This document shows, in pieces, positions 1-13,565 of a stretch of DNA of 23,924 bases. The notes beneath the pieces were generated by a model, which saw only the letters and a list, made by a program, of their open reading frames with translations, had not been told where the DNA came from and made no database searches. How positions within the stretch are numbered: position 1 is the first letter of the stretch; every line of letters begins with the position of its first letter. Source of the DNA: a virus; IMG/VR virus record IMGVR_UViG_3300031645_000015, positions 1-23,924 of that record. The stretch is one strand, 5' to 3'. A program made the position numbers and the translations under genes.

Positions 1-205
1 CCAACTAGCGGCCCGCCTCCTCACAGCCGGAGCCAGGGCCTGTCACGACGCCAACGCCAAGGCGCGGCGGAGGTACGAACGGGTCAGCGCGTACAACGAT
101 ATTCGCAGGGGCATCGTAGCCGGGGATGAGCTGGCAGTGTGCTTGGGGTTTGAGCGGCTGAAACGAACCACCCGGAAATCCCGGACAGTTGGAGGTGAGG
201 GGTGA
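1..205 (+). CDS. Small hypothetical protein, 5' end cut by window; paralogue of the gene at 825
   Basis: An open frame enters from the window edge (first full codon at 2) and stops at TGA 203-205, giving about 67 visible residues. The protein is basic and helical-looking, with ERVSAYNDIRRGIVAGDELA in its middle, and ends in GGEG. It is clearly a paralogue of the gene at 825-1028: both begin with a QLAA-x-LLTAGA-like segment, share 22 identical residues in the core and end in the same way. It overlaps the next gene by GTGA. I do not recognise the family. The high similarity of the two copies suggests a recent duplication in the small-gene array. Function unknown; that it is coding is supported by the preserved frame in both copies. 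Confidence 0.7.
   Translation, partial: QLAARLLTAGARACHDANAKARRRYERVSAYNDIRRGIVAGDELAVCLGFERLKRTTRKSRTVGGEG
75..142 (+). repeat. 68-nt perfect direct repeat, copy 1
   Basis: This stretch is identical to 916-983, 841 nt downstream. It lies in the core of two paralogous small genes. The flanks on either side are also related but carry several mismatches, mostly upstream (about 40-74). Confidence 0.9.
191..205 (+). promoter_or_regulatory. Repeated RBS/stop/start junction GGAGGTGAGGGGTGA (first of four exact copies)
   Basis: The 15-mer contains a strong Shine-Dalgarno sequence (GGAGGTGAG), then GTGA in which GTG is the start of the downstream gene and TGA the stop of the upstream gene. Exact copies lie at 191-205, 382-396, 564-578 and 1014-1028; a variant (AGAGGTGAGGAGTGA) is at 1325-1339. 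Within the upstream frame it encodes GGEG. It implies tight translational coupling of the array. Confidence 0.85.
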
Positions 206-396
206 GAGGCTACATACCGATGAGGCTGGTCAAGTGGGAGGACATCAAAGTGCGGTCTAACCTCGCCGGGGAGTTCCCGATGAAGGCCATGCCAGGCACC
301 GAGGGTGTGTTGCTGGTGTACTCTACCAGCGAGGCGGCGCAGGCTGCCTATCCAGATGCGAAAATAGTTGAACTGGCCTGGGGAGGTGAGGGGTGA
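202..396 (+). CDS. Small hypothetical protein, 64 aa
   Basis: GTG start at 202 sits 6 nt after GGAGG (191-195) and overlaps the previous stop as GTGA; an internal ATG at 220 is a weaker alternative. The protein has no recognised domain. It begins MRGYIPMRLVKWEDI, has a mixed alpha/beta look with a VLLVYST strand-like segment, and ends in GGEG because its 3' end is the repeated junction. No membrane segment. It is one of a chain of coupled accessory genes; function unknown. Confidence 0.65.
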   Translation: MRGYIPMRLVKWEDIKVRSNLAGEFPMKAMPGTEGVLLVYSTSEAAQAAYPDAKIVELAWGGEG

Positions 397-578
397 TTAT
401 CTACAGAGTCTACGACGACAGCACGGACCAGACGCATGGCTATTTTGAGGACGAGTACGACGCCGAAGACGCCTGCGACCTCATCAGAGAGGACCGCTGC
501 TTCGACGACTGGCGGGTTGAACCGCTGGAAGTACATGAGCGAGCGTCGAGGAAGGCAACCAAGGGAGGTGAGGGGTGA
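393..578 (+). CDS. Small acidic hypothetical protein, 61 aa
   Basis: GTG start at 393 overlaps the upstream stop (GTGA) and is preceded by GGAGG at 382-386. The product is strongly acidic (YFEDEYDAEDACDLIRED), starts with a strand-like MIIYRVYDD and ends in GGEG. Small acidic early proteins of phages often mimic DNA or inhibit host enzymes, but that is only a general analogy; nothing here identifies a target. Overlapping long frames at 436 and on the other strand look like shadows. Confidence 0.65.
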   Translation: MIIYRVYDDSTDQTHGYFEDEYDAEDACDLIREDRCFDDWRVEPLEVHERASRKATKGGEG

Positions 579-619
579 GTCGGGACACGGTCCACGAAGA
601 GCGAGACGAGATCGAATAG
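575..619 (+). CDS. 14-residue coupled mini-ORF, possibly the remnant of a deleted cassette
   Basis: The third copy of the repeated junction (564-578) provides a good ribosome binding site and a GTG start at 575, but the frame stops at TAG 617-619 after MSRDTVHEERDEIE. The next real gene has its own site at 625-629. This could be a leader peptide, a remnant of a gene lost by deletion, or simply a start with no selected product. Elsewhere in the array the same junction always leads into a gene of 60 or more codons. Confidence 0.25.
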   Translation: MSRDTVHEERDEIE

Positions 620-636
620 ACGCTGGAGGGAAAATG

Positions 637-828
637 ATGGACATGTTTATCTGCGACCACGCCACCCACCTGCTATGCCCTTTGGACGGGTGCCCGCATA
701 AGGTGCCCCACGAATACTGCGGCGACCCCTCGCAGAGCGAGGACGGCACGTCGTGCGGGCAAGCTCCGTGCTTCGATGGGGGCGCTGAGGTGTTCCCCTC
801 CGTCCGCTGCGTGCCGGTGGAGCCGTGA
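637..828 (+). CDS. Cys-rich small protein, 63-64 aa
   Basis: Two ATGs lie side by side (634 and 637) after GGAGG at 625-629; 637 has the better spacing (7 nt). The product has seven cysteines and several histidines in about 64 residues (CDHATHLLCPLDGCPH, then single Cys at about 29, 41, 46 and 59 counted from 634), suggesting a zinc-binding fold or disulfides. No signal peptide is visible, so intracellular zinc binding is the simpler idea. It ends in GTGA overlapping the next gene. A longer frame opening at 436 is not needed, since 436-578 lies inside the previous gene. Family not recognised. Confidence 0.6.
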   Translation: MDMFICDHATHLLCPLDGCPHKVPHEYCGDPSQSEDGTSCGQAPCFDGGAEVFPSVRCVPVEP

Positions 829-1028
829 AAGCCCTGCTCCTCCAGTTAGCGGCCCAGCTCCTCACCGCCGGAGCCAGCGCCTACCGCAAGGCAGACGCCG
901 CTGCCAAGCGCAAGCACGAACGGGTCAGCGCGTACAACGATATTCGCAGGGGCATCGTAGCCGGGGATGAGCTGGCAGTGTGCAAGGGGTTTGAGCGACT
1001 GAAACGAACTAACGGAGGTGAGGGGTGA
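825..1028 (+). CDS. Small hypothetical protein, 67 aa; complete paralogue of the gene at window start
   Basis: GTG start at 825 overlaps the previous stop (GTGA). The first residues MKALLLQLAAQLLTAGASA look like a short hydrophobic or amphipathic helix, followed by a basic segment (KADAAAKRKHERVSAYNDIRR) and a C-terminal GGEG. It might be a weak N-terminal signal or an amphipathic helix, but there is no cleavage site I would defend. A 68-nt stretch is identical to the copy at 75-142. Having two copies separated by three small genes suggests duplication within the array. Confidence 0.65.
   Translation: MKALLLQLAAQLLTAGASAYRKADAAAKRKHERVSAYNDIRRGIVAGDELAVCKGFERLKRTNGGEG
916..983 (+). repeat. 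68-nt perfect direct repeat, copy 2
   Basis: Identical to 75-142; encodes residues of the conserved core of the two paralogous small proteins without a single synonymous difference. Confidence 0.9.
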
Positions 1029-1339
1029 ATACGGTAAAAATCACGGTAGAGGTGGATCTCCAGACGCCGGCAGAGGCGGCAGTTGAAGCAGCGGTCAAAG
1101 GCATGTTCCAGACTGCTGACGGCGGTTACCATAGGCCTGGCGCCGCCGTCGGCATGATCCACGGGCAGGTCAAGAGGGAGGTCAGCGCCATGGACCTCAA
1201 GCCCGCGATCCTGGAGGCGATCAGCGGGCGTCTCACCGCAGCAGTGGCCGACGCTGTGGACGCTGAGATCAGGCGAGCGACCAAAGCGGCGATGAAGGCA
1301 GGTCTACAGCCCGGTGGCTGGCTGAGAGGTGAGGAGTGA
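1025..1339 (+). CDS. Hypothetical protein, 104 aa, Ala-rich helical
   Basis: GTG start at 1025 follows the fourth exact junction repeat (1014-1028). The protein opens with a strand (VKITVEVDLQT) followed by long Ala-rich helices (PAEAAVEAAVKGMF, and residues about 55-92). No membrane segment or known motif. It ends at a variant of the junction repeat, so its last residues are RGEE instead of GGEG, and it overlaps the next gene by GTGA. Not recognised; likely a soluble accessory protein. Confidence 0.65.
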   Translation: MNTVKITVEVDLQTPAEAAVEAAVKGMFQTADGGYHRPGAAVGMIHGQVKREVSAMDLKPAILEAISGRLTAAVADAVDAEIRRATKAAMKAGLQPGGWLRGEE

Positions 1340-3473: not shown

Positions 3474-4160
3474 ATGGCTGAGAAGATGAACCTGGGAGAG
3501 CGGCTGCTGGAGATCAGGAAGGCGCTGCCCTACCTCCAGAAGACGGCGAAGGGCTTCGGGTACGACTACGTGCCTGGGTCCGCGGTGCTGGCCGTGGTGG
3601 TTGGCAAGATGAATGAGATGGGCGTGATGCTGGTCCCCTCGTTCGTTCCTGGTACGCGCCACATCGAGGCGCTGAAGTACTCCACCAAGAGCGGGCAGGA
3701 GAAGCAGGGGTATCTGGTCCACGCCGACATGGTGATGACCTTCTTCTGCGTGGACACCCCCGAGGACCGCCTCGAGGTGTCGTGGATCCATGCTGGCTTC
3801 CAGGATGACCCGTCGCAGGCGTTTGGCTCCGGCCTGACGTACGCGGAGCGGTACTTCCTGCTGAAGTTCTTCAACGTCCCAACGGACAAGGACGACCCCG
3901 ACCGCTTCGTCGAGGAGAAGGGATCGCCCCAGATGAAGCGCCAGGTGGAGGAGTCCCGCCACGCTGACGATCCCCAGGTCGCCGCTGGTCTGCTCAAGAG
4001 CATCGCTGCGTGCAACGACCTCCCGACGCTGAAGTCGCTCTGGCTGAAGAACGTCAAGGTGGTGAAGGACCTCAGCAACGGCTTCCGTGCTGAGCTGGAG
4101 AAGGCCAAGGACGCCCGCAAGGACGCACTGGCGACGGCTGGCGGCGGCTCTCTGGCGTGA
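3474..4160 (+). CDS. erf: ERF-family single-strand annealing protein, 228 aa
   Basis: Promotes annealing of complementary single strands in phage recombination, as for P22 Erf. The evidence is the N-terminal ERF-like core: YLQKTAKGFGYDYVPGSAVL (residues about 20-39), a central beta region ending MVMTFFCVD, and the hallmark GSGLTYAERYFLLKFFNVPT followed by DKDDPD (about 118-143). The C-terminal third is a charged helical tail. ATG 3474 has AAGGAGAGG just upstream; a TTG 18 nt earlier in frame is less likely. The gene follows ssb by 14 nt, and its stop overlaps the next start by GTGA. Confidence 0.8.
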   Translation: MAEKMNLGERLLEIRKALPYLQKTAKGFGYDYVPGSAVLAVVVGKMNEMGVMLVPSFVPGTRHIEALKYSTKSGQEKQGYLVHADMVMTFFCVDTPEDRLEVSWIHAGFQDDPSQAFGSGLTYAERYFLLKFFNVPTDKDDPDRFVEEKGSPQMKRQVEESRHADDPQVAAGLLKSIAACNDLPTLKSLWLKNVKVVKDLSNGFRAELEKAKDARKDALATAGGGSLA

Positions 4161-11519: not shown

Positions 11520-13565
11520 ATGATCCGATCACACAACATCGACTGGAACCACATGGTCAAGACCGCCGAAACGGCGTCCTTCAATATCAGCAAGTACGAG
11601 GCTGGCGATATTGTGGTGCTGGACCCGGCTGGTGCGTCTGCACATATCACGATCACGCTGGACGCCAAGTACGACATGAACAAGAAGAGTGGCCCCGTCC
11701 ACTTCCTCATCTCCAGCGCCACGACCACGTATCAGGTGATCATCGCTGACAACAGCCTGTGCTACTCGTTCGCCGCCGACCTGACGCTGGGAAGCGCGAC
11801 CAAGGACCTCACCGGGAAGTTGTTCACGCTGGTCAGCGACAGCACCAAGTGGGCCTACGAGGGGCCGGAAGACGTGGACTTCGAGGGCGACCTGAGCGTT
11901 GACAGCCTCACCTCTGCTGGCGACGTTACCGTGGGCGGCGACGTACTTCTCGCTGACGGACAGGCCATCGAGGGGCAGGGAAGCATCCAGATCACGACCA
12001 AGGCCGTTGCTGCCGAGACCGACGGGTCCGACATCGACATCAACCTCGTTGCGGGCGGCGTGGCTGGCGTTGGCGCTGGTGGAGAAGGTGGCGACCATGC
12101 GACCACTGCCGGCGCTGGCGGTGCGGCCAATGCTGCTGCTGCCGGTGGAACGGGTGGAGACCTGAACTACACGGCTGGCACTGGTGGCGCTGGCGACGAT
12201 GACGTGGGCGCTCTCGGTGTCCCTGGTGTCGGTGGAACCCTCATCACCAAGGCAGGAGCAGGCGGGGCAGGTACTGCGGCAACTCAGGGCGGAGCTGACG
12301 GCGGGGACAACGCCCTCGTGGCCGGTGCCGGTGGGGTCGGCGGTGCGGCGACCGTGGGCGGTGTCGGCGGTGACGCCATCGTTCGTCCTGGTGCTGGTGG
12401 AGCGACTGGTGGAGGCGGGGCCGGTGCAGACGGCGAAGTCAAGATCGGTGACGCGGACACGAGCGCCATCGAGATCGGCAACGCGACTGACAACCCGACC
12501 TTCGAGTTCCTCGGCTCGAGCGACGTGGTTATCGCTGGGAACCTCAGCCCTGCGACCGGCAAGGGCGTTGAGGGCGACGGCAACCTGCTTATCACGACCG
12601 TTGATGCTGCGGCTGACACCGTGGGCTTCACGGCGACCTACGAGTCTGGCGAGGGTGGCGTGGCTGTGGCTGGTGCTGGCGGCGCTGGTGGCGCTCTCGC
12701 TACCACGGCTGGTGCTGGTGGCGCAGGCGTGTCTGGGTTCATCGGTGGAGCGGGCGGGGCTCTCTCTGTCTCCGCTGGTGTCGGTGGAATCGACGCGGAC
12801 ACGAACGCTGGAGCAGGCGGGGCGCTTGCCATCGCTGGTGGCGCTGGTGGTTCGGCTGCGGTCGCTGATGTGGCTGCTGGCGACGGTGGTGCTCTCAGTA
12901 TCGCTGCTGGTGCTGGTGGAGCAGGCGGCGCAGCGGGTGCGGTCGGCGGAAGCGGTGGAGACACCACGGTCAACGCTGGTGCTGCTGGCGTGACTGGCGG
13001 TGCCGGTGCGGGGTCCAACGGGAATCTCCTCATCGGTGCGGCGAACACCTCTGAGCTTCGCTTCGGCAACGCGACCGACAACCCAGGATCCGAGTTCCTG
13101 GGCACTGGCGGCGTGACCATCAACGGCCCGCTGATCACCCTCGCTAATACCCTTACCCTGGCAGTCGCACCGACCGATGATACCGCTGAGGGCGTCAAGA
13201 TCATGGGCGTCGGTGGAGAAGCTGGCATCTTGTTTGGGATGCCTCTCTACAAGGAAGCGACCGCTACCAAGTGGAAGATCGCTGACGCAGTGCAAGGCAC
13301 CGCTCTCTACCCGTGCATTGGGATCGCCCTGGGGTCCGCTGGCGACGGCGACGCGCTTCAGATCCTGCTCATGGGGACCATCGCTGACGCCTCCCGCTTC
13401 GCTGCGCTCACGACCGAAGGGGCTCCGGTGTACCTCAACGACACGGTGGGCACCTTCTCGGAGACCGCACCGAGCGACGCTGGCGACGCTGTGCAGCGGG
13501 TCGGTATCGTGATCGGCGCGGCTACCATGTACTTCAACCCGTCGCTAAACGTGGGCATCGTGTAG
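11520..13565 (+). CDS. Gly/Ala-rich capsid fibre or decoration protein, 681 aa
   Basis: Probably a virion surface protein attached to the head. Layout: N-terminal globular domain (about 1-115), a beta module (about 122-160), Gly/Ala arm 1 (about 178-306), a beta module (about 307-360), Gly/Ala arm 2 (about 376-500), a second copy of the beta module (503-538), and a C-terminal domain (about 550-681). The beta modules share FGNATDNP/IGNATDNP plus EFLG, so the protein holds an internal duplication of some 190 residues. The C-terminus (MPLYKEATATKWKIADA, TEGAPVYLNDTVGTFSETAP, TMYFNPS) resembles head-fibre C-terminal domains such as phi29 gp8.5-type proteins. The arms may form beta-solenoid or polyglycine-II packing. 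Good binding site AGGAG (11509-11513). Confidence 0.7.
   Translation: MIRSHNIDWNHMVKTAETASFNISKYEAGDIVVLDPAGASAHITITLDAKYDMNKKSGPVHFLISSATTTYQVIIADNSLCYSFAADLTLGSATKDLTGKLFTLVSDSTKWAYEGPEDVDFEGDLSVDSLTSAGDVTVGGDVLLADGQAIEGQGSIQITTKAVAAETDGSDIDINLVAGGVAGVGAGGEGGDHATTAGAGGAANAAAAGGTGGDLNYTAGTGGAGDDDVGALGVPGVGGTLITKAGAGGAGTAATQGGADGGDNALVAGAGGVGGAATVGGVGGDAIVRPGAGGATGGGGAGADGEVKIGDADTSAIEIGNATDNPTFEFLGSSDVVIAGNLSPATGKGVEGDGNLLITTVDAAADTVGFTATYESGEGGVAVAGAGGAGGALATTAGAGGAGVSGFIGGAGGALSVSAGVGGIDADTNAGAGGALAIAGGAGGSAAVADVAAGDGGALSIAAGAGGAGGAAGAVGGSGGDTTVNAGAAGVTGGAGAGSNGNLLIGAANTSELRFGNATDNPGSEFLGTGGVTINGPLITLANTLTLAVAPTDDTAEGVKIMGVGGEAGILFGMPLYKEATATKWKIADAVQGTALYPCIGIALGSAGDGDALQILLMGTIADASRFAALTTEGAPVYLNDTVGTFSETAPSDAGDAVQRVGIVIGAATMYFNPSLNVGIV
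12051..13019 (+). repeat. Two Gly/Ala-rich repeat arms (12051-12437 and 12645-13019)
   Basis: Each arm repeats a loose unit of the form GGALxIxAGxGG plus a linker of about 7-11 residues, encoded by GCTGGTGGCGCT-like DNA. The arms are separated by a beta module (12438-12599) that recurs after the second arm (13026-13133). The DNA repetition makes the gene prone to slippage or recombination. Confidence 0.75.

Follow-up and report, generated by a model that had tools for sequence, protein, structure and literature searches.

A 15-nt sequence, GGAGGTGAGGGGTGA, recurs in a row of small phage genes and carries within itself the ribosome binding site, the stop of the upstream gene and the start of the downstream gene. 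The DNA analysed is a complete IMG/VR record, a linear tailed-phage fragment of 23,924 bases (the window). On balance, the 15-mer is best read as a translational-coupling junction that doubles as an Erf/SSB-assisted site for the gain, loss and swapping of whole genes. This reading draws on the anatomy and reuse of the 15-mer, on a gene duplication that ends at it, and on gene changes in relatives that are bordered by junctions of the same kind.

Anatomy and possible descent of the repeated junction

The window presents the gene order SSB, Erf-like annealing protein, terminase, portal and major capsid. Its first 2.6 kb form a row of small genes, for which no significant family match was found. 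The features of this region are as follows.

2 to 205, + strand: g1; 5' end cut by the window start, paralogue of g5, C terminus ...GGEG
191 to 205, + strand: junction copy 1; full Shine-Dalgarno (SD) core GGAGGTGA, GGG and GTGA stop/start overlap
202 to 396, + strand: g2; 64 amino acids, homologue in another phage (L049), 52% identical
382 to 396, + strand: junction copy 2; exact 15-mer
393 to 578, + strand: g3; 61 amino acids, no relatives found, C terminus ...GGEG
564 to 578, + strand: junction copy 3; exact 15-mer
575 to 619, + strand: 14-codon open reading frame (ORF); start supplied by copy 3 and weakly similar to that of g3
634 to 828, + strand: g4; 64 amino acids, Cys-rich, ATG start with GGAGG
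825 to 1028, + strand: g5; 67 amino acids, paralogue of g1 (73% identical), GTGA overlap with g4 and weak SD
1014 to 1028, + strand: junction copy 4; the g1/g5 homology stops exactly here
1025 to 1339, + strand: g6; 104 amino acids, no relatives found
1325 to 1339, + strand: variant junction AGAGGTGAGGAGTGA; two mismatches to the 15-mer
1336 to 1614, + strand: g7; 92 amino acids, membrane- or lipoprotein-like N terminus as read from the sequence, ATGA junction at its end
2227 to 2643, + strand: g10; 138 amino acids, 33% identical homologue adjoining the junction array of another phage (L036)
3052 to 3459, + strand: single-strand DNA-binding protein (SSB); phrog_44, 1.7e-12
3474 to 4160, + strand: Erf-like single-strand DNA annealing protein; phrog_155, 4.8e-29, candidate recombinase for short-homology exchange

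The array extends beyond position 1339 through other GTGA and ATGA junctions that lack the 15-mer, and it may also continue upstream of the window start, where g1 is cut. Elsewhere in the window, positions 11520 to 13565 encode a 681-amino-acid Gly/Ala-rich protein with collagen-like GAGG/AGG repeats and no PHROG match, which is probably a structural or fibre protein.

The four exact 15-mers, all on the + strand, lie within 0.84 kb, and none occurs in the rest of the record (22.9 kb). No exact copy arose in 100 dinucleotide shuffles of the window, and a search of the window allowing three mismatches retrieved seven sites against 1.5 expected from such shuffles. The 15-mer is composed, in order, of the 8-nt SD core GGAGGTGA, which is complementary to the 3' end of 16S rRNA, a GGG spacer and the 4-nt GTGA overlap of stop and start. 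The core stands 3 nt before the GTG, and GGAGG stands 6 nt before it. In the upstream frame each copy reads GGA GGT GAG GGG TGA, that is, GGEG followed by the stop, and in the downstream frame it provides the GTG; the shared C-terminal GGEG of the upstream proteins is therefore the translation signal read in the upstream frame. With its perfect match to the 16S 3' end, proper spacing and stop/start overlap, the 15-mer has the features of an ordinary SD junction with a 4-nt overlap. It is best explained as a translational-coupling junction, the coupling itself being predicted.

These features bear out the earlier note, which had placed exact copies at 191, 382, 564 and 1014 and a variant at 1325, and had seen one sequence serving as ribosome binding site, upstream stop, downstream GTG and GGEG. 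Its statement that each copy joins two small genes holds in general but not for the copy at 564, which opens only the 14-codon ORF and not a proper small gene. This ORF is possibly the scar or remnant of a gene that was lost or has decayed. Nor does the 15-mer stand at all junctions of this phage, as the note had allowed it might: the full 8-nt core occurs at four of the 31 gene starts checked, which are the four array starts only, while the variant at 1325 retains 7 bases of it and the remaining starts 0 to 7 nt.

The 15-mers are restricted to translation starts in the non-structural part of the genome. Identical copies at gene starts, confined to that region, are also found among the start-associated sequences (SAS) of cluster K mycobacteriophages (PMC3203893), and the 15-mer might likewise be a DNA or RNA recognition site for a phage or host regulator. 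This is very improbable, given that nearly all of its bases are already accounted for by the SD and the stop/start overlap, that no inverted repeats were found next to the window junctions, and that no known RNA family was matched in Rfam.

Outside the 15 nt, the flanking sequences of the copies are unrelated, except in the duplication of g1 and g5 (copies at 191 and 1014). Here DNA homology extends over about 200 bp and terminates precisely with the final base of the 15-mer. The copies at 382 and 564 share a weak similarity (38 nt at 76%). Genes g2, g3, g4 and g6 have no similarity to each other, in agreement with the earlier claim that the genes between the junctions are unrelated but for one pair.

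The copies could all derive by simple descent, with one gene and its junction duplicated in tandem repeatedly, the bodies diverging unrecognisably and the junction held by constraint. The clear g1/g5 duplicates are of this kind, the 382/564 similarity would fit, and the ORF at 575 may represent a degraded duplicate of g3. As an account of the whole array, however, simple descent is improbable. It is opposed by the dissimilarity of g2, g3, g4 and g6, by the relationship of g2 to a gene of another phage in a different neighbourhood, and by relatives that differ in the presence of whole genes and not by divergence alone. Tandem duplication, which the earlier note had offered as its alternative, thus explains the g1/g5 pair only.

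Occurrence of the 15-mer in other phages

The 15-mer is present in 66 other IMG/VR stretches, most of the records holding a single copy. In these other phages it joins two ORFs of at least 50 amino acids in 20 of 47 distinct usable contexts. Among comparison sites, the same is true of 24 of 70 GTGA sites preceded by GGAGG (34%) and of 5.7% of other GTGA sites. The rate for the 15-mer is close to that of any GGAGG...GTGA site, and the sequence itself is therefore an ordinary strong translation signal.

Repetition of the 15-mer within 1 kb, by contrast, is not ordinary. Two exact copies occur in each of three records (L015, L037 and L038), one exact copy and one with two mismatches in L042, and one exact copy and two with one mismatch in L050; four copies were found in none of the other IMG/VR records counted. 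Bacterial genomes yielded no pair of 15-mers spaced 150 to 180 nt apart. In L015, L037, L038 and L042, which are unrelated phages, the copies lie 0.4 to 2.8 kb apart between non-paralogous small genes.

These counts bear on a serious though less probable explanation, in which selection for translation alone has kept or independently evolved a strong SD and overlap at each junction, and illegitimate recombination leaves gene-precise products as the survivors. Twelve of the 15 positions belong to the SD core or the stop/start overlap, the same 15-mer appears in unrelated phages at the rate of other GGAGG...GTGA sites, and most mosaic borders are preferentially explained by illegitimate exchange close to the edges of genes (PMC3029335). 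Junctions that combine the full SD with a different spacer are nevertheless rare, with about six distinct examples in 0.66 Mb of other phage DNA, which makes independent convergence on four identical GGG-spacer junctions within 1 kb unlikely. Moreover, other junctions of the same phage, some of them overlapping, function without the 15-mer.

Gene content of relatives at similar junctions

Close relatives were sought in IMG/VR with the terminase, g5, Erf, g2 and capsid, and none was found with these five queries. The relatives retrieved were L071 (a short capsid, 69%), L072 (a distant Erf), L036 and L081 (terminases 29 to 31% identical to that of the window) and L049, together with more distant terminase matches. 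In INPHARED, none of g2, g5, g10 and the L081 lipoprotein had a match, and no relative of g2 was found in bacterial genomes. L049 supplies the single g2 homologue detected in IMG/VR, and an exact 15-mer lies about 0.5 kb away from it; the 86.9-kb record of L049 contains no detectable relative of the window terminase or capsid. L036 carries its g10 homologue after its own junction array. Changes of gene content are accordingly seen in distant relatives and not at the window's own exact 15-mers.

L081 and L049 share 152 identical bases up to GGCCGGGGAGGGGGA, and this identity stops inside the G-rich junction GGGGAGGGGGA. Past the shared block, L049 has two extra small genes, the second of which is the g2 homologue, and similarity to L081 returns at GGGGAGGTGGACCGATGAGCG for 68 bp (90%). 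On the left side, the genes immediately preceding GGAGGTGAGG(A/G)GTGAA are unrelated in the two phages and terminate in GGAGGTGAGGAGTGAA and GGAGGTGAGGGGTGAA, and the gene that follows belongs to one family. The borders on both sides therefore indicate that gene presence or absence changes at junctions of this class. They fall in similar G-rich SD junctions or in a one-base variant of the 15-mer, and not in identical 15-mers. Two other borders are located inside genes, one 68 bp into the block that starts at the MSES gene and one within the lipoprotein gene. In L049 the g2 homologue is preceded by GGGGGGAGGAGTGA, so that genes are not tied to a fixed junction.

The exchange of cassettes at a shared junction, as proposed in the earlier note, is thus seen in part. 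Relatives vary in whole genes at such junctions, as L081 and L049 do, which departs from the unvarying gene order that the note had held against its proposal, but no breakpoint in these relatives lay inside an identical 15-mer.

This argument rests on L081 versus L049. L036 and L081 are nearly identical contigs (99.94% over 8154 bp), and L036, L049 and L081 are all identical over the 152 bases, after which L036 matches L049 for another 1.7 kb at 100%. L036 could have arisen by recombination very recently, or its assembly could have joined L049 and L081 as a chimera across the shared 152 bp. Because a chimera could have formed across bases identical in all three, L036 was not counted as an independent case, and its use as a clean recombinant of L049 was set aside. 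In total, 1893 bp of the 9844-bp L036 match L049 at 100% identity, and this stretch overlaps by about 200 bp the part that matches L081. g7 was suspected to be homologous to the L081 lipoprotein, but 55 of 1000 shuffles scored as well; the similarity is not significant, and the idea was dropped.

Two features of L081 were noted alongside. The gene at positions 1 to 209 is open-ended, consists of near-perfect repeats of Ala, Arg and Trp (AAARDAAWAAARAAARDAAW...) and finishes in the junction GGAGGTGAGGAGTGA. The lipoprotein-like gene at 206 to 535 is one 109-amino-acid ORF in L081, where a run of C has five members, and is split in L049 and L036 by a run of six.

Proposed exchange and comparison with known systems

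In the proposed mechanism, the last codons of an upstream gene would form the full SD core GGAGGTGA, with the GTG of the next gene overlapping the TGA stop. The small accessory genes that precede the recombination and packaging modules would each move as a unit in gains, losses, duplications and swaps, and the 15-mer would be repeated as a result of its junctions acting as the short common sequence at which such exchange occurs. Annealing at the junctions would probably proceed through the phage's own Erf and SSB, and every exchange would leave the reading of both neighbouring genes intact. The window encodes both proteins, and Rad52-like proteins, Erf among them, are efficient at recombining homologous stretches that are short or diverged (PMC3945230), which suggests the corresponding activity here. 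A site-specific recombinase was also considered and rejected: the window proteins scanned gave no integrase, transposase or HNH match, and inverted repeats do not adjoin the junctions.

Homology-guided exchange helped by the Erf annealing protein is the likelier reading. The preference for guidance over blind recombination followed by selection is only moderate, because the relatives break at similar and not identical junctions and two borders lie within genes. Surviving borders at junctions are also expected if selection removes breaks inside genes. A bolder version, which we consider doubtful, is a self-propagating cassette format, in which a fixed stop/ribosome-site/start tag is adopted by any small gene that joins the array and unrelated phages trade single genes through the tag by Erf annealing at 11 to 15 bp.

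In the nin region of phage lambda, small genes form a chain with overlapping stops and starts and with the SD inside the upstream gene. These interlinked genes resemble the array of the window, although they belong to another phage and overlap by ATGA.

For lambdoid phages, short conserved boundary sequences were proposed to serve homologous gene exchange (Clark et al. 2001; Susskind and Botstein 1978, as summarised in PMC3029335); at most mosaic borders such sequences reportedly cannot be recognised (PMC3029335). As characterised in that summary, they share with the 15-mer a short sequence common to gene junctions and a proposed role as exchange point between phages. In the window, too, the same short sequence stands at several junctions between unrelated genes, and mosaic borders fall in such junctions (both sides of L081 versus L049, and the right end of g1/g5); the junctions are similar and not all identical, and the other borders are intragenic. 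Set against the lambdoid sequences so described, the boundary in the window is made up of the stop, the ribosome site and the start themselves, and a single genome holds several copies of it.

The SAS of cluster K are likewise short direct repeats with an SD core at the starts of non-structural genes of different families, and sometimes include the upstream stop, as the 15-mer does (PMC3203893). They differ in their 13-bp consensus, GGGATAGGAGCCC, which GGAGGTGAGGGGTGA does not match, in mostly ATG starts, in conservation beyond the rRNA pairing, in a copy number of 11 to 19 per genome, and in the 17-bp inverted repeats that accompany about half of them (PMC3203893). In Brujita and Island3, whole small genes are present or absent in close relatives with sequence shared at gene ends as the crossover, as in the exchange proposed here, but that sequence is about 50 to 60 bp of 3' coding sequence and not a 15-nt translation junction (PMC3029335).

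Whether phage mosaics arise from exchange at short shared junctions or from random recombination and selection is a long-standing question, for which a repeated junction with the translation signal as shared sequence, together with whole-gene differences in relatives, offers a compact natural test system. The idea of boundary sequences is already known; new here is that the boundary is the translation signal itself.
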